Shown: positions 19,509-27,311 of the stretch, in pieces
Position numbering within the stretch: position 1 is the first letter of the stretch
Layout of the letters: every line of letters begins with the position of its first letter
Program-made: the position numbers and the translations under genes
The notes under the pieces: generated by a model
What the model was told of the DNA's origin: nothing
Seen by the model: the letters and a program-made list of their open reading frames with translations, nothing else
Database searches by the model: none
Source: Phycisphaeraceae bacterium
GTDB taxonomy: Bacteria > Planctomycetota > Phycisphaerae > Phycisphaerales > Phycisphaeraceae
Direction: 5' to 3'
Length of the DNA: 64,000 nt
NCBI GenBank assembly: GCA_029260655.1
Contig: JAJDCU010000016.1
Location: 62,001-126,000 of the forward strand

Positions 19509-19683
19509 GGAGCTTACTACAACCTAGGCCGACAACGCCCCCGGGGCAAGGCCCGCCCGGGTCCACGACCCGATAAACCCAAAACTTGTAAGCCCGGCCC
19601 CCATGCCTACGATGGGGCGTCTTTCGCCGACACAACCGGCCAGACGGGAAGGAACAGCGAATCGCCCCCATCGGAGACCTGCC

Positions 19684-20862
19684 TTGCGTGACCCACGACT
19701 GGATAAACTTGCCCGCGTCCTGGTTGAATACGCTACGGCGGTCAAGCCCGGGCAACTGGTGCGTCTGACCGGTGCGCCGGTGTCGGCTCCGCTGCTGGAG
19801 GCGCTGTATGAGGCCGTCGTCAAGGCCGGGGCGCACCCCTACGTCAAGAGCGCGCCGGAGGGCCTGAGCAACATCCTCTTTGAGCACGGCGGCGATGAGC
19901 AGTTGCGGTACGTCAGCCCGCTGGCGCTTCAGGAGATCGAGACGATCGACGTGTCGATCGGTCTGTGGGCGGAGACGAACACCAAGAGCCTGTCGCGCGT
20001 CGATCCTAAGCGTCAGGGGATCGCGTCCTCAGCTCGCAAGCCCATCATGAAGGTGTTTATGGAACGCGCCGCCGCGGCGAGCGACCCATCTGCGAATCCC
20101 GGCGTTAAGCCATTGAAGTGGTCGGGCACGCAGTACCCCACACTCGCCAGTGCGCAGGACGCCGAGATGAGCCTCACCGAGTACGAAGACTTCGTCTTTA
20201 ATGCCGGGCATTTGGATAAGGACGACCCCGTCGCCGAGTGGGTCAAGATCAAGGACCGCCAGCAGAAGGTCGTCGACTATCTCAACGGCAAGAAGGTCAT
20301 CCACTTCAAGACCCCCCGCGGGACGGACCTGACCGTGAACGTCGAGGGTATGACGTGGATCAACTGCTGCGGCCACGAGAACTTCCCCGACGGCGAGGTC
20401 TTCACCGGGCCGAACCTCAAGGCCGACTGCGGCGGTGTTAACGGCGTGGTGAAGTACTCCTTCCCCGCGGTGCACCACGGGCGAGAGGTCCACGACATCG
20501 AGCTGACTTTTGAAAATGGCCGGGTCGTCGACGCCAAGGCCGGCAAGAACCAGGCGTTCCTGATCGACATGCTCGACCAGGACCCCGGCGCACGCAGCCT
20601 CGGCGAGATCGCGGTCGGGACCAACTACCAGATCACCGAGTACACCAAGAACACCTTGTTCGACGAGAAGATCGGCGGGACCTTCCACGCGGCGGTCGGG
20701 GCGGGGTATCCCGAGACCGGTAACGCCAACGAGTCCGGGCTTCACTGGGACATGGTCTGCGACCTGCGCCCCGATGCCAGCGGCGGGACCATCACCGTCG
20801 ATGGCGAAGTGATCTCCAAGGACGGCAAGTTCGTCTTCGACGGCTGGCCGGGCAACGGCTGA
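19684..20862 (+). CDS. M29-family aminopeptidase (thermophilic metalloaminopeptidase)
   Basis: A 392-residue cytoplasmic metalloaminopeptidase that trims N-terminal residues from peptides. Expected metal-ligand regions are visible: DGEVFTGP, GEIAVGTN, GTFHAAVGAGYPETG and LHWDMVCDLR, in family order. The start is set at the TTG at 19684-19686, because the protein then begins LRDPRLDKLARVLV, as relatives begin with (M)RDPRLEKLA, and GGAGAC lies about five bases upstream. The upstream ATG at 19603 would add 27 residues of proline/arginine-rich sequence. Length fits the family. Confidence 0.9.
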   Translation: MRDPRLDKLARVLVEYATAVKPGQLVRLTGAPVSAPLLEALYEAVVKAGAHPYVKSAPEGLSNILFEHGGDEQLRYVSPLALQEIETIDVSIGLWAETNTKSLSRVDPKRQGIASSARKPIMKVFMERAAAASDPSANPGVKPLKWSGTQYPTLASAQDAEMSLTEYEDFVFNAGHLDKDDPVAEWVKIKDRQQKVVDYLNGKKVIHFKTPRGTDLTVNVEGMTWINCCGHENFPDGEVFTGPNLKADCGGVNGVVKYSFPAVHHGREVHDIELTFENGRVVDAKAGKNQAFLIDMLDQDPGARSLGEIAVGTNYQITEYTKNTLFDEKIGGTFHAAVGAGYPETGNANESGLHWDMVCDLRPDASGGTITVDGEVISKDGKFVFDGWPGNG

Positions 20863-20909
20863 GCGGCCTCATGGATCAGGCGGAACCACCAAGCCACGGA
20901 GAAGAGGCT

Positions 20910-20993
20910 ATCCGCGGATTGCGCAGATGACGCAGATTAGGAATCTTAGGGTTTACCTGATCTAAATCTGTGTCCTCTGCGCAATCTGCGGAT
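20910..20993. repeat. Long imperfect inverted repeat downstream of the aminopeptidase gene
   Basis: Two 29-base arms (20910-20938 and 20965-20993) begin ATCCGC.GATTGCGCAGA and end CAGATT; by eye about 24 of 29 positions pair. The loop is 26 bases. Repeats with GCGCAGATGACGCAGATT-like units are often dispersed in environmental genomes; no gene is present. Confidence 0.65.
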
Positions 20994-21160
20994 CACTTCT
21001 TCCCTTTTCTCACTGCCCTGCCACGTGAATATGCCCTGGCGACCGGTCCCAAGCCCCGTCCCAGATACGGGAACACCCCCCGCCGCTTCCCCGGCCCGGA
21101 GACAGGCTATCGTGTAAAATTGCGGTAACGTCCGACACCCGGACGAGCAGGAGTGTTGCG

Positions 21161-21652
21161 ATGCTGACCAAGACGCTAAACCGGATGATCCAGCGCAAGC
21201 AGACCACGGCCCGTGAGATCGCGGAGATGGCGGGGGTGTCGACCTCGACGGTGTACCGGTGGATCGCCGGGCAGAGCCAGCCGGACTTTGATTCGATCCG
21301 GCTGCTGGTGCGGCACCTGCCGAACAAGAAGGCGCAGGAGTCGCTCCTGGGTGTGTTTACGATGGGGACGGCCTGGCAATTCGCCTGCCCGGACCTGGAA
21401 CTGGATGTGAACGCCGACGGTAAGATCGACGCCGCAGACGCCTTGGACGCTTCGATCGGAGCGGTCCACAGCTCGGCGAAGAACCTCAAGCAACTCCGCA
21501 TGGCCTTCCGCGACGGGATGGCTAATTCCGAGCAGATACTGGAGTTGGTCCACCTGCTGCAACACACCGCCGGGCAGTGCATGATCACACAGCAGGTCCT
21601 GGTCCACCTCAGCGAGAAGAACAAGCGGCGCAAACTCAAGCTCGTGCGCTGA
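21161..21652 (+). CDS. HTH protein with an EF-hand-like loop
   Basis: A 163-residue protein. Residues 1-55 form a Cro/CI-like helix-turn-helix (TAREIAEMAGVSTSTVYRWI). Around residues 86-97 lies DVNADGKIDAAD, which fits the 12-residue EF-hand consensus at positions 1, 3, 5, 6, 8 and 12. The rest is helical and ends in a basic tail (KNKRRKLKLVR). This suggests a DNA-binding regulator that may respond to calcium; the calcium part is inference. It could instead be a relative of phage CII-type regulators whose loop only looks like an EF-hand. A good AGGAG lies at 21149-21153. It stands between unrelated genes. Confidence 0.7.
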   Translation: MLTKTLNRMIQRKQTTAREIAEMAGVSTSTVYRWIAGQSQPDFDSIRLLVRHLPNKKAQESLLGVFTMGTAWQFACPDLELDVNADGKIDAADALDASIGAVHSSAKNLKQLRMAFRDGMANSEQILELVHLLQHTAGQCMITQQVLVHLSEKNKRRKLKLVR

Positions 21653-21744: not shown

Positions 21745-22992
21745 ATGAATCGGCTCGCAACCCTCACGTTATGGACGCTAATGGCGGCCTACGGCGTCAG
21801 CCAAGCCCAGGAAACCTCTCCCGCCACACAGCCGGATACCCCGCTAAAGTCCGGGCAATTCACCGTCACTTTCAGCGAACGCAGCCCGTTGAGCACGGTC
21901 AAGGCGGTGACCCAGCGCTTCCTCGCCGAACTTCGGAACCCCCCGGACGATTACACGCTCGAAGATGAATCCTTCATCGTCTACGTCCCTGAAAGCTACG
22001 ACGGCGCCGAGGCCTACGGCCTGATCGTCTGGATCAACGCGGGACCCAACGGCTGGCCCCCCAGGCAGTACATGCCCCTGCTCGATAAGCACAAACTGAT
22101 CTGGGTCGGCGCAAACAACTCCGGCAACAAACGGAGCTTCTGGCACCGTACCGGGCTGGCGCTTGATGGGCTGCACAACATCTCTAAGCGGTACAACATC
22201 GACCCGATGCGCACCTACATCAGCGGGTTCTCCGGCGGGGGCCGGTCCAGTTCGCGTGTCGGGCTGACCTACCCCGATCTCTTCGCGGGGACGTTCCCGC
22301 TGGACGGCGTCGACTACTTCACACGCCTGCCCCACCCCAACAACACCGATACCATCCTGCGGTACTGGGGGCCGTCCTTCCGCGCCCCGCCGCGCAAACT
22401 CCTGGAGCACGCCAAGAGCGACTGCCGGTTCGTCCTGATGACCGGCGAACACGACGGCAACAAACCCCAGACACTGGCGACCTACCAGTACGGGCTCAAA
22501 CGCGGCAAGTTCGAGCACGTGACCTATCTGGAGGTCCCCGGGAAGGGCCACGCCCTCCCCCCCGCCGAATGGTTCGAGCGCGGGATCGTGGCGCTGGACG
22601 CACCGATCGAACTGATCCTCCAGAGCCGGGAGGAGTCGGCCGACAAAGCGATGAAGATCGCGATGGCCCGGCTCAAGCGCAGCACGAAAGCGGGCTACCT
22701 GGCGCTTGAGCAAGTCATCAACGACTACCCCCAGACCGCCGCCGCGCAGCAGGCCGCCAGCGAGGTGAAGCGCATCCGGGATGACCCCGAACTAAGCAAG
22801 TCATTACAAGACGCAACACCCTCCGGGCAGGACAAGCTCCGCGGACGCCTGGCCTTGGCCAAAGGCTACCTCCAGGCCGACATGCCCGACGACGCCCGCC
22901 CCCTGCTGCAAAGCGTGATCGACGACGCCCCCGACTCCGAAGAGGCCGATGAGGCGCGGGCGCTGTTAGAGGGGATGAGCGCAACAGAATAA
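21745..22992 (+). CDS. Secreted alpha/beta-hydrolase (esterase/depolymerase-like) with TPR-like tail
   Basis: A 415-residue exported protein. A signal peptide (MNRLATLTLWTLMAAYGVSQA) is followed by an alpha/beta-hydrolase domain with the nucleophile elbow GFSGGGR near residue 165, TGEHDGN (acid) and GKGHALP (histidine). The fold is like polyhydroxyalkanoate depolymerases and feruloyl esterases. The C-terminal 120 residues are helical and repeat-like (AQQAASEVKRI, ALAKGYLQADMPDDARPLL), similar to tetratricopeptide repeats. It likely cleaves an ester in a polymer or glycan outside the cytoplasm; the substrate is unknown. Stand-alone gene, followed by the REP cluster. Confidence 0.78.
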   Translation: MNRLATLTLWTLMAAYGVSQAQETSPATQPDTPLKSGQFTVTFSERSPLSTVKAVTQRFLAELRNPPDDYTLEDESFIVYVPESYDGAEAYGLIVWINAGPNGWPPRQYMPLLDKHKLIWVGANNSGNKRSFWHRTGLALDGLHNISKRYNIDPMRTYISGFSGGGRSSSRVGLTYPDLFAGTFPLDGVDYFTRLPHPNNTDTILRYWGPSFRAPPRKLLEHAKSDCRFVLMTGEHDGNKPQTLATYQYGLKRGKFEHVTYLEVPGKGHALPPAEWFERGIVALDAPIELILQSREESADKAMKIAMARLKRSTKAGYLALEQVINDYPQTAAAQQAASEVKRIRDDPELSKSLQDATPSGQDKLRGRLALAKGYLQADMPDDARPLLQSVIDDAPDSEEADEARALLEGMSATE

Positions 22993-23135: not shown

Positions 23136-23761
23136 ATGATCCGGGCCAATCATCTGATCTTCACCGCCTACGGCTTCTGGCTCCCAAACGATCCGCGGGG
23201 CTCTTGGTCGAACTACGTCCGCGCCTACGAACTGTACCAGGCTGGGCCCGCCACAAAACTACAACCCGCCGCTCCGTCGCAGGCCGGACCCATAACCGAA
23301 GCGATCGAGAGAGCGCCAAGCGTCAACTGATGTTCCCTCCTGTCGTGATGGACGGACAACAGGCCCGCGCGGTGGCACGGGGTATCGCCGCGCAGACTAC
23401 GGCCAGCGGCTACCGCATCCACGCATGCGCCATCCTTCCGGACCATGTGCATCTTGTGGTGGCCCGGCACCGCTATCACGCCGAACAGGTGATGAACCTG
23501 TTGAAGGGAGCAGCGACACGGCAGTTGCTTGACGAGGGCCTGCATCCGCTCGCCGGATACCGTGACGCGAAAGGCCGAACCCCCTCGCCCTGGGCCGTCG
23601 GTGGCTGGAAGGTGTTTCTGGATTCCGACCAGGCAGTAAAAAGGGCGACCCGCTACGTACAGCAAAACCCGATCAAGGCGGGACTGAAACGTCAGGCGTG
23701 GTCGTTTATCGAACCGATGAGTTCGAACGGTGAGAAGCCCGGCCCTACGGGCAGGCGCTAA
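23136..23761 (+). pseudogene. REP-associated tyrosine transposase (RAYT, IS200-like), frameshifted
   Basis: A Y1 transposase of about 208 codons. The start (MIRANHLIFTAYGFWLPNDPRGSW) reads from 23136; after about 23305 the frame changes and continues as KRQLMFPPVVM, then the HUH motif in PDHVHLVVARH and the C-terminal YVQQNPIKAGL to a stop at 23759-23761. The shift falls at a GAGAGAG run; removing one GA restores a continuous frame (EAIESAKRQLMFPP). RAYTs nick and mobilise the REP hairpins that flank them. The stop codon lies within an inverted REP copy at 23755-23767. The break may be a real decay event, a reversible slippage, or an error. Confidence 0.82.
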
Positions 23762-23911: not shown

Positions 23912-25399
23912 TTACCCCCGTTGTCCGATTTCCTTGCCTCCACCCCCCACCGACAACGGCACCGCCGCGCCTTCGTCGCCGGGGGATATTCCGGGGGCGC
24001 CTTCGATGTGCAGTTTCTTTGCCCGGTGCTGGGACCAGTCGGTGACTTGCAGGTCGGGCGCGTCCTTGCCGTCGTGGATATTTAACAGGTTGTAGCCGTT
24101 GTCTCGCTGGGCGGGGACGAAGCCGGAGTCGCGGATCAGTTGGCACAGCACCGGCTCGTTCAGGCAGTAAGTCGTGCCGGCGGCGCTGACGACGTTCTCT
24201 TCCATCATCACGCTGCCCATGTCGTTAGCGCCGTAGAACAGGCCGAGCTGGCCGATCTTCGGGCCCATCGTGACCCAGGACGCGCCGATCGAGTGGATGT
24301 TGTCGAGGAACAAACGGCTAAGCGCCTGCATCCGAAGGTACTCGCTCGCCCCGGCCATCCTGACTAACTTCCCGGCCTTGGGGATCGCCTTGTCGCAGGC
24401 GGCCTTGTCGTGCGGGTCGACTTTACCTGAGAAAACAAGGTCCGCCAGCACATCACCCGGGAACGGATCGCCCGAGGTTTCATCCCAGTCTGGCACACGG
24501 CCAAGCGGGGTGTTCTCGCGCTGGAAAGGCCAACTGATGAAGCTGACGTATCGCCCTAGCCAGTTTTTTTGGATCGCCTCGTCCTGACGGTCGCGCACCG
24601 CCGCCATGTGCATGACACGGTCGGCGACGCCTTCGATGTGACCGAACATCATCGTCGCGCTGGTCTGCATCCCAAGCCGGTGCCCGGCGGCCATCACGTC
24701 CAGCCACTGAGCGCCATCCGCCTTGCCCGGCCCGATCCGCCGACGGACGTGCTCAGGAAAAATCTCGCCGCCGCCGCCCGGAATGGTGTCGAGCCCCGCC
24801 GCCATCAAACGCTTCAAGATGGCTTCAAGTTTCGCGTTCCACACATCCGCCGCCAGCTCGTGACTCTTGCCGGGGGCGGTGGTGGGGAAGCCTTCAATAT
24901 CAAACACCGCGACAAACTCCACGAACTCCGGCGGGCTGAACCCGTGGATATGCACCCCAGGAAAATTTTCTTTGATCCCTCGAAGCATGTCCTCATAAAA
25001 CCCGATCGCCAGGTCCGGGTGCATCCCCCCCTGCAAGAGCACCTGCGTCCCGCCGATGTCGACAAGCTCCCGGATCTTCTGATGAAGCTGCTCGGTGCTC
25101 AGCGTGTAAGCATCTTTTTCATCCCCATCCCGCCGAAACGCGCAGAACGTGCAGCGGGCCGAGCAGACGTTGGTGTAATTGACGTTGCGGTCGATGACGT
25201 AGGTGCGTGATGCTTCATCACCCCCGCCGTGGATCCGGTCACACACCGCCGACGCCCACCTGCCAAGGTCGTGCATCGACGCTTCGTGATACAGCCGCAG
25301 CGCATCGGCAGGCGACAGCCGGGCCTTACCCGCGATCACCGCATCGATATTCAACTCCCGGGCCAGCGTCTTGGAATCAGTCGTTTGAGTCGTCGTCAT
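23912..25399 (-). CDS. mqnC: Cyclic dehypoxanthinyl futalosine synthase, radical SAM
   Basis: Radical SAM enzyme of the futalosine route to menaquinone. The cluster motif reads CSARCTFCAF, followed by GGTQVLLQGGMHPDL, FSPPEF, DTIPGGGGEI and MMEENVVSAAGT; the GGGGEI and EENVVSAAG blocks favour MqnC over MqnE. The ATG at 25397-25399 gives 495 residues, well above the usual length near 370: there is an extra segment around DPFPGDVLADLVFSG and a C-terminal tail of about 45 residues ending in a glycine-rich stretch next to the REP cluster. The other mqn genes are not in this window. MqnE is the main alternative. Confidence 0.82.
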   Translation of the reverse strand: MTTTQTTDSKTLARELNIDAVIAGKARLSPADALRLYHEASMHDLGRWASAVCDRIHGGGDEASRTYVIDRNVNYTNVCSARCTFCAFRRDGDEKDAYTLSTEQLHQKIRELVDIGGTQVLLQGGMHPDLAIGFYEDMLRGIKENFPGVHIHGFSPPEFVEFVAVFDIEGFPTTAPGKSHELAADVWNAKLEAILKRLMAAGLDTIPGGGGEIFPEHVRRRIGPGKADGAQWLDVMAAGHRLGMQTSATMMFGHIEGVADRVMHMAAVRDRQDEAIQKNWLGRYVSFISWPFQRENTPLGRVPDWDETSGDPFPGDVLADLVFSGKVDPHDKAACDKAIPKAGKLVRMAGASEYLRMQALSRLFLDNIHSIGASWVTMGPKIGQLGLFYGANDMGSVMMEENVVSAAGTTYCLNEPVLCQLIRDSGFVPAQRDNGYNLLNIHDGKDAPDLQVTDWSQHRAKKLHIEGAPGISPGDEGAAVPLSVGGGGKEIGQRG

Positions 25400-25468
25400 G
25401 GGCGGGATTGTAGGGGGTTCCGGCGTTGAGGTCACGACCAGCGGTCGGTGCAGGGATCATGATCAGGC

Positions 25469-25874: not shown

Positions 25875-27311
25875 TCACCTGCGCCGACCGGTGCGCGGCC
25901 ACAGCAGGCCCAGGACGATCAGCGTGCAAGCCGCGCCGGGCTCGGGGATGTTCGCAGCAATGCCGGGCGGGGGCCCCGGAGGTGTACCGGCGTTCCAGTT
26001 GCCCAATACGAGGTTGATATCCTCGATGCCGACGAACCCGTCGCCGGAAGGGTCGCCCAGCAAGAGATCGCCCGGGGTGGCGGGTTGGTTCCACCTGGCC
26101 AACACGAGACCTAAATCTTCGACCCCGACAAACCCGTCGGCGTTGAGGTCGCCGATCAATGGGATGAGGGTCGAGACAAACGTGTGGGACCAGTCGGCGG
26201 TGTTGCCGACGCTGTTGGTCACGCGCAGGTCGAGGGTGTGTTCGCCGGCGGGCAGGTCTGACAAACCAAAGGCCAGGTCTTCGGTGTATCCATCGAACAC
26301 GCCATCGAGTGCGGGCAAGGATTCCCAGGGTTGGCCGTCCAGACGGAACTTGGCATCACTGATCGTGTTGATCGTGATCGCCAGCCCCAGGCTCTCAAGC
26401 GGGTCGACGCTCAGGGCCCCGTCGAAAGAAAACGCGCCGTCGGTCGGGCTTGCCTGCACCAAGGTCGGCAGGATCAACGGGAGCGTATCGAGGATATCGG
26501 GGATGGTATCGCCGTCGGTGTCGGCCGTGCCGATCTGGCCGTGGGTGAAGGGGTTGACGCTCGTGCTACCGAAGGTGTGCATGAGCGAATCGGTATTGAG
26601 CGCGGGGTTGACGGTGACGCCGTCGGGGAGGAAGTGCGCGTTGCCGTTTGGGAAGTTCAGGTACCCGCCGGTGTCGTCGGTGAAGGAGTTGAACTCGTCG
26701 ATCGCGCCGAACTGGTGTGCCCACTCGTGTGTGTAGGTCCAGGCCAGGTCGTTTTCGAACCCGACGGAGAACGGGCCGTTGAGGTAGCTGTACGCCCCGC
26801 CGGTGGTCGGCTTGATGAACTGTGTGAACGACCAGTGTGTCTGGTTTAGGGTGCGCTGGTCGTGGTTGAATTGGGCGACGTTATTGAACGGGTCGGGGTC
26901 GAGATAGCCCAGGTCGGCCATGACCTGGTTGACGAACAGCTCGCTGCCTGGATCGCCCAGCCCGCCGCCGACGCTGTCGACCGCCACGGGCTGGCCGGCG
27001 TTTAGGAAGTTAAGACTCATCGAAAGCTGCGCAGTCGGGTGCAGGGCCGACGTCTGCGACTGCCACCAGGAAGCGGCGTTGGCGAGCTCGGCCGTCCGGC
27101 CGGTAAGGTCCCCGGGCGACCAGGTGTTCACGGCGTCTTCGATGAAGATGACGTTGACGGTGTAGCTGCCCAGTGCGTAGCTTCCGGTGTCTAGCAGCGG
27201 GTCTGCGCCGAAGGGGATCGGTGGGGTGTTGGCACGGACATCACCGACCGCGGCGCAAAGAACAAACGCCACGGCCATCGCGCTTCGTGAAGTTCGGACA
27301 CCAGAGAACAA
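25875..27311 (-). CDS. Secreted HExxH metallopeptidase with dockerin-like repeats and PEP-CTERM tail
   Basis: A 478-residue exported protein. After a signal peptide (AMAVAFVLCAAVGDVRA) comes a zinc-peptidase-like domain with THEWAHQFGAIDE near residue 195, where HEWAH fits HExxH. A beta-sandwich-like segment follows (DLPAGEHTLDLRVTNSVGN), then two dockerin-like units (GDLNADGFVGVEDLG, GDGFVGIEDINLVLG) and a PEP-CTERM end (IPEPGAACTLIVLGLL, GRRR). It is probably surface-anchored by exosortase and binds calcium. The dockerin units match those of the pair at 7024-9130, so they share an assembly or anchoring system. Substrate unknown. Confidence 0.85.
   Translation of the reverse strand: MFSGVRTSRSAMAVAFVLCAAVGDVRANTPPIPFGADPLLDTGSYALGSYTVNVIFIEDAVNTWSPGDLTGRTAELANAASWWQSQTSALHPTAQLSMSLNFLNAGQPVAVDSVGGGLGDPGSELFVNQVMADLGYLDPDPFNNVAQFNHDQRTLNQTHWSFTQFIKPTTGGAYSYLNGPFSVGFENDLAWTYTHEWAHQFGAIDEFNSFTDDTGGYLNFPNGNAHFLPDGVTVNPALNTDSLMHTFGSTSVNPFTHGQIGTADTDGDTIPDILDTLPLILPTLVQASPTDGAFSFDGALSVDPLESLGLAITINTISDAKFRLDGQPWESLPALDGVFDGYTEDLAFGLSDLPAGEHTLDLRVTNSVGNTADWSHTFVSTLIPLIGDLNADGFVGVEDLGLVLARWNQPATPGDLLLGDPSGDGFVGIEDINLVLGNWNAGTPPGPPPGIAANIPEPGAACTLIVLGLLWPRTGRRR

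Follow-up and report, generated by a model that had tools for sequence, protein, structure and literature searches.

A Cro/CI-type regulator of Phycisphaeraceae with a conserved EF-hand loop in its predicted hinge, and its relatives in Mu-like phages

The window analysed here is a stretch of 64,000 nucleotides from a Phycisphaeraceae bacterium (contig JAJDCU010000016.1, positions 62,001 to 126,000). On its forward strand, the gene under study (21161..21652) starts with ATG behind an AGGAG at 21149-21153 and encodes 163 aa followed by a stop codon, an assignment supported by the open reading frame, the orthologues and dN/dS. An earlier note, made from the sequence alone, had described the product as a small Cro/CI-like protein with an EF-hand loop. 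The reading frame and a Pfam match to HTH_3 (32.1 bits against a cut-off of 23, E 1.2e-7, aa 12-53) confirm this description and place the protein in the Cro/CI (XRE) type. As delimited by HTH_3 and AlphaFold, the DNA-binding domain covers aa 1-67 (21161..21361, forward strand) with five predicted helices (2-11, 17-24, 28-35, 43-52 and 56-67), and its structural matches are P22 c2, DdrO and SinR-type proteins. The regulator bears no sign of an export signal, and its family is represented by one copy in the source genome, a 3.5 Mb bin from a group of Phycisphaeraceae bins (OFTM355/41/374).

Behind this domain, and on the same strand, the chain continues with a hinge (aa 68-81, 21362..21403), predicted to lack regular secondary structure, and with the loop DVNADGKIDAAD (aa 82-93, 21404..21439), which is of the EF-hand, dockerin type, as indicated by ligand conservation and a genome pattern match (C16:83404). 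D1, N3, D5, G6, I8, D9 and D12 are all in place, so that the earlier claim of a loop with every key EF-hand position (D1, N3, D5, G6, I8, D12) holds for aa 82-93. Judged by its sequence, DVNADGKIDAAD fits the 12-residue definition of EF-hand loop proteins (D or N at positions 1, 3 and 5, G at 6, a hydrophobic residue at 8, D or E at 12). A predicted helical hairpin follows, made of a first helix at aa 91-115 (21431..21505) and a second at aa 123-157 (21527..21631); the AlphaFold model, hairpin matches and a whole-chain match to phage 186 CII suggest that it is a probable oligomerisation hairpin. The protein ends in a conserved basic tail, SEKNKRRKLKLVR (21611..21649), a K/R-rich end common to the chromosomal and phage members of the family.

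The AlphaFold2 model, built with 50 homologues, has a mean pLDDT of 90, with ~92 in the loop block 81-90 and a dip to 76 in the hinge block 71-80. Residues 68-90 are modelled as non-helical, which puts the loop in a hinge between the HTH domain and the hairpin; the first hairpin helix has its start at loop position 10, where the outgoing helix (F helix) of an EF-hand would also start. The chain has neither an incoming helix, 68-90 being helix-free, nor a paired second EF-hand, there being one loop only. Because the incoming helix is absent, we regard the site as a dockerin-like half site. Type I dockerins (PF00404) likewise have a D-x-N-x-D-G-x-[IV]-x-x-x-D loop that runs straight into a helix without an incoming one; they differ in carrying a duplicated pair of loops, whereas the regulator has one, is fused to an HTH and lacks an export signal. 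In the structure prediction, which the earlier note had proposed as a check, the loop leads straight into a helix, a predicted setting that fits metal binding.

In whole-chain structural comparison, phage 186 CII scores best (6vli_D; Z 9.3 over 131 residues, rmsd 4.4), although helical matches in such a range can reflect common arrangements. CII, a phage regulator (PF06892, Phage_CP76; PDB 6vli and 6vpe), has ~165 aa, an N-terminal HTH and a C-terminal helical hairpin, a layout that the model of the window protein resembles, but the hinge of CII is without an EF-hand loop. Aligning the family with 186 CII by hhalign gave a non-significant result (E 0.17, probability 0.4%) that left the loop unmatched, and Phage_CP76 was not among the matches listed for the window protein. 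Since the sequence comparison is not significant, the resemblance is one of architecture and not of membership; in this architectural sense only, the model points to a one-component regulator that resembles CII and has an EF-hand in its hinge. For the C-terminal model, Foldseek and VIA yielded generic helical hairpins only, with no EF-hand chain among the matches listed.

The gene lies between an M29 aminopeptidase gene (19603..20862, forward strand; PF02073, E 2e-85), found upstream on the same strand in 13 other loci from several genera, and a convergent gene for an MqnC-like radical SAM enzyme (23912..25435, reverse strand), whose TIGR03699 score of 405.8 bits falls just under the cut-off of 428.1. 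The MqnC-like gene is downstream of the orthologue in 15 loci, and 7 loci have both neighbours. The window's clade thus behaves as a stable chromosomal gene between these two, and the idea of a prophage gene in the window was rejected on this housekeeping synteny and on the lack of a MuA of this kind in the source genome. The next gene downstream, at 21745..22992 on the forward strand, encodes an alpha/beta hydrolase of PHB-depolymerase-like type with a signal peptide (weak esterase_phb matches); it adjoins the regulator in few loci only and is possibly a co-transcribed or target gene in some genera. Further on, at 23136-23761, lies a REP-associated tyrosine transposase, seemingly split over two reading frames and possibly tied to palindromic repeats.

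Upstream of the regulator, a block at 21107..21123 (forward strand), CTATCGTGTAAAATTGC, is near-identical in three congeners and has one genome copy at up to 2 mismatches; it is probably the gene's own promoter. An operator search upstream of the regulator across genera found nothing in common, and neither the upstream comparisons nor the genome search with the genus-level block revealed a regulated promoter, operator or target gene. The gap upstream of the regulator holds a 38-nt inverted repeat (20901-21002; 84%), whose half-site GCGCAATCTGCGGAT has 32 genome copies at up to 1 mismatch, against 0 in the control.

The homologue searches covered 294 genomes from the phylum, 400 from the order and a wider collection with genomes for 84,980 species. 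Apart from the window protein, they returned 32 orthologue-like proteins (33 with it) of 40-94% identity from 18 genera, and ~25 divergent ones besides. The earlier note had asked whether homologues keep the loop, and all 33 orthologue-like proteins (at least 40% identity to the window protein) have it in full. In a C-terminal alignment of 24 sequences, the invariant columns are G69, D82, N84, D86, G87, D93, A94, L109 and L133, mostly EF ligands. The ligand codons drift synonymously (D82 is GAT in 14 and GAC in 18 orthologues, and G87 uses all four codons), while dN/dS within the genus is 0.05-0.11; together these indicate that the invariant ligand residues are held by selection. The earlier interpretation is supported in part: the product is an HTH protein without sign of export, its loop is kept by selection and the predicted setting fits metal binding, and as a calcium-responsive regulator it is a candidate.

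Among the 47 loop-bearing homologues, loop positions 4, 7, 10 and 11 are free to vary and position 12 is D in every one. The ligands behave as all or none: 46 of the 47 have 5/5 key positions, and 11 loopless paralogues have 1-3. When the tree is built with the loop columns left out, the loop state maps to a single change (SH-aLRT 94); the most distant loop-bearing proteins (L068, L074-L076), which are marginal with the loop masked, were excluded from the second tree. When 51 genomes of the window's family were searched with the HTH region alone, the loop was present in 35 and absent in 6 of the 41 matches at E up to 1e-7; being blind to the loop, this search is largely free of the bias that a query containing the loop would bring. 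Random position sets were as conserved as the loop positions of the orthologues in 625 of 200,000 draws. For 12 divergent loop-bearing proteins the figure was 0/200,000, but it is partly circular, as these were grouped by having the loop, and the fair figures are those of the orthologues and of the loop-blind search. One loopless paralogue clade of the same HTH family (L109-L114, e.g. L110:9701-10210) has HTH similarity stronger than that of the phage members and no MuA nearby. Another loopless relative with a similar basic tail (L091:520-1011) belongs to a different family of the class (G699), which hints that the HTH-hairpin family may predate the loop.

Two branches make up the family: a chromosomal one, in Phycisphaeraceae and a sister family, and one that lies upstream of a Mu-type transposase in Mu-like phages or prophages of these hosts. 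A tblastn search of the window protein against phages and plasmids gave no match. Among viral contigs, a scan turned up a relative with the loop (LDINGDGDVDVSDAM, 177 aa) in IMGVR_UViG_3300023283_000396, where it is the first of a run of overlapping genes ending in the MuA transposase. Seven divergent loop-bearing proteins of the homologue set are encoded upstream of MuA, at a distance of 0.75-1.6 kb and in the same orientation; in total, eight divergent relatives and the one in the viral contig sit just upstream of Mu-type transposases. An inverse search, which took MuA in the order's 400 genomes as its starting point, gives the fairer count. In hosts from the window's family and the sister family, upstream DNA was readable for 11 MuA genes, and the EF-loop regulator is present at 6 of these, L120 being a new one. 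The count is 0/9 in other families of the order, where some have loopless HTH proteins of similar length and layout at the same place. In the viral contig, this Mu-like early region (L094:4782-9615) opens with the EF-loop HTH regulator, after which come four small genes that overlap, and then MuA; seven prophages contain relatives of a 112-aa gene located between the regulator and MuA.

Even after removal or masking of the loops, a search with the phage-clade profile recovers the window protein at E 2.4e-23, and in 94% of bootstrap trees the phage members group as a single clade. Loop-masked L120 and L067 match the chromosomal profile weakly (0.7 and 2.8e-4), their kinship deriving mostly from the phage clade and from position. 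In phage Mu, this place upstream of MuA belongs to Ner. The divergent members resemble the Ner- or repressor-position regulators of Mu-like phages in being HTH proteins just upstream of MuA on the same strand; they differ in being longer (~160-180 aa) and in having the hairpin and the EF loop. Adjacency to MuA holds for this sister clade and not for the window gene, whose genome (G000) has no MuA. The two branches may be related by domestication of a phage gene or by capture of a host gene, the outgroup being distant.

The source of the loop and its role may be read in several ways. The loop pattern occurs 124 times in the source genome, against 0 in the reversed control. One could therefore suppose that a secreted-proteome dockerin loop was copied by chance, and to no use, into an HTH gene of this lineage. 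The genome's loops are nearly all of the form D-x-N/D-x-D-G-F-V-G-I-E-D, with F7 and G9, whereas the regulator has K7 and D9, position 9 being usually G in the former. The loop is moreover retained across two families and among phages, its codons varying synonymously. We consider such a copy very improbable, and a copy of a local dockerin loop was rejected on loop type and conservation. Nor does the loop look like a chance pattern, given the 124 to 0 ratio, its keeping across genera with only synonymous ligand change and the dN/dS of 0.05-0.11. Dockerin_1 itself matches the regulator below its cut-off and in one segment (16.0 bits against 22.9, E 0.014, aa 81-95), which does not make it a type I dockerin. 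The earlier note had stated that secreted proteins of the window use similar dockerin loops; such loops are real, but their type differs at positions 7 and 9, so the link between the regulator and these proteins is weak. One secreted protein (25875-27311) combines a zincin-like motif (HEWAHQFGAID) with two loops of dockerin type and has a PEP-CTERM-like end; a Pfam search gave it no match at E 0.01.

A loop that binds no metal, its D, N and G residues serving as helix N-cap and hinge or as an acidic surface for protein contacts, would agree with the position of D93 within the first turn of the modelled hairpin helix. Invariant ligands around free positions 4, 7, 10 and 11 are instead the signature of an EF-hand, not of a capping box, and of 50 members scanned singly, 29 match Dockerin_1 and 7 match EF-hand_5 (E up to 0.1); this alternative appears improbable, if less so than the chance copy. 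The strong rival is a constitutive structural metal site, occupied by Mg2+ at cytoplasmic levels or by tightly bound Ca2+, that would hold the hinge together without ever serving as a sensor. It owes its strength to the invariant D12 and the single unpaired loop. In calmodulin-type loops, D12 reduces the affinity for Ca2+ and favours Mg2+, although dockerins use D12 with Ca2+; EF-hands are usually paired. All-or-none conservation is expected of a structural site too, and the loopless paralogues imply that the architecture can do without the loop. The wholesale loss in one clade, set against retention in phage and chromosomal clades, suggests, if weakly, more than scaffold stability, and we give the structural site a substantial chance that stays short of even.

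We favour a one-component regulator composed of HTH, hinge, cation-binding loop, hairpin and basic tail, whose DNA binding depends on the ion, and put this joint reading at a probability of about 0.5. The loop is most likely a real divalent-metal site and the ion probably supports or controls the DNA grip of these regulators; by loop type, Ca2+ is the likelier ion. In the mechanism that we infer, the hairpin (aa 91-157) would probably serve oligomerisation, and the loop (aa 82-93) would bind one divalent cation, most likely Ca2+. Binding would order the hinge and anchor the start of the first hairpin helix; in a dimer, this would set the angle or spacing of the two HTH domains and so make DNA binding dependent on the bound ion. 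The source genome encodes a protein of the Na+/Ca2+-exchanger family, which is compatible with low cytoplasmic Ca2+, although such proteins are common. Against an ion-responsive regulator stand a position 12 that is never E (47/47), a single loop without incoming helix, the failure to find a regulated promoter or operator and the 11-member group of loopless paralogues.

A bolder proposal is that of a one-component family gated directly by Ca2+ through an EF-hand in a CII-like hinge, with which Mu-like phages would couple lysis-lysogeny to host cytoplasmic Ca2+, the Phycisphaeraceae copy being domesticated, chromosomal and Ca2+-responsive. We hold it to be rather unlikely in this full form. If true, direct EF-hand sensing of Ca2+ by a bacterial or phage DNA-binding protein would provide a simple, testable output for the long-debated Ca2+ signalling of bacteria, and the phage link would offer prophage induction as a second test bed.

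Our search of the open-access literature, which was not exhaustive and is no proof of novelty, came upon no account of a bacterial HTH regulator with a fused EF-hand. Canonical EF-hand loops are known in bacteria from EfhP, calerythrin and CabC (PMC9132961, PMC10574481), which resemble the regulator in this respect; they have two or more EF-hands, and in the parts of these sources that we consulted none is described as an HTH DNA-binding protein. Two distant HTH proteins with an EF-like loop, whose kinship to the family is marginal once the loop is masked, were also observed (L107:6944-7447 and L108:9375-9902); they lie near a RecE-like exonuclease gene, in a region that is probably mobile.
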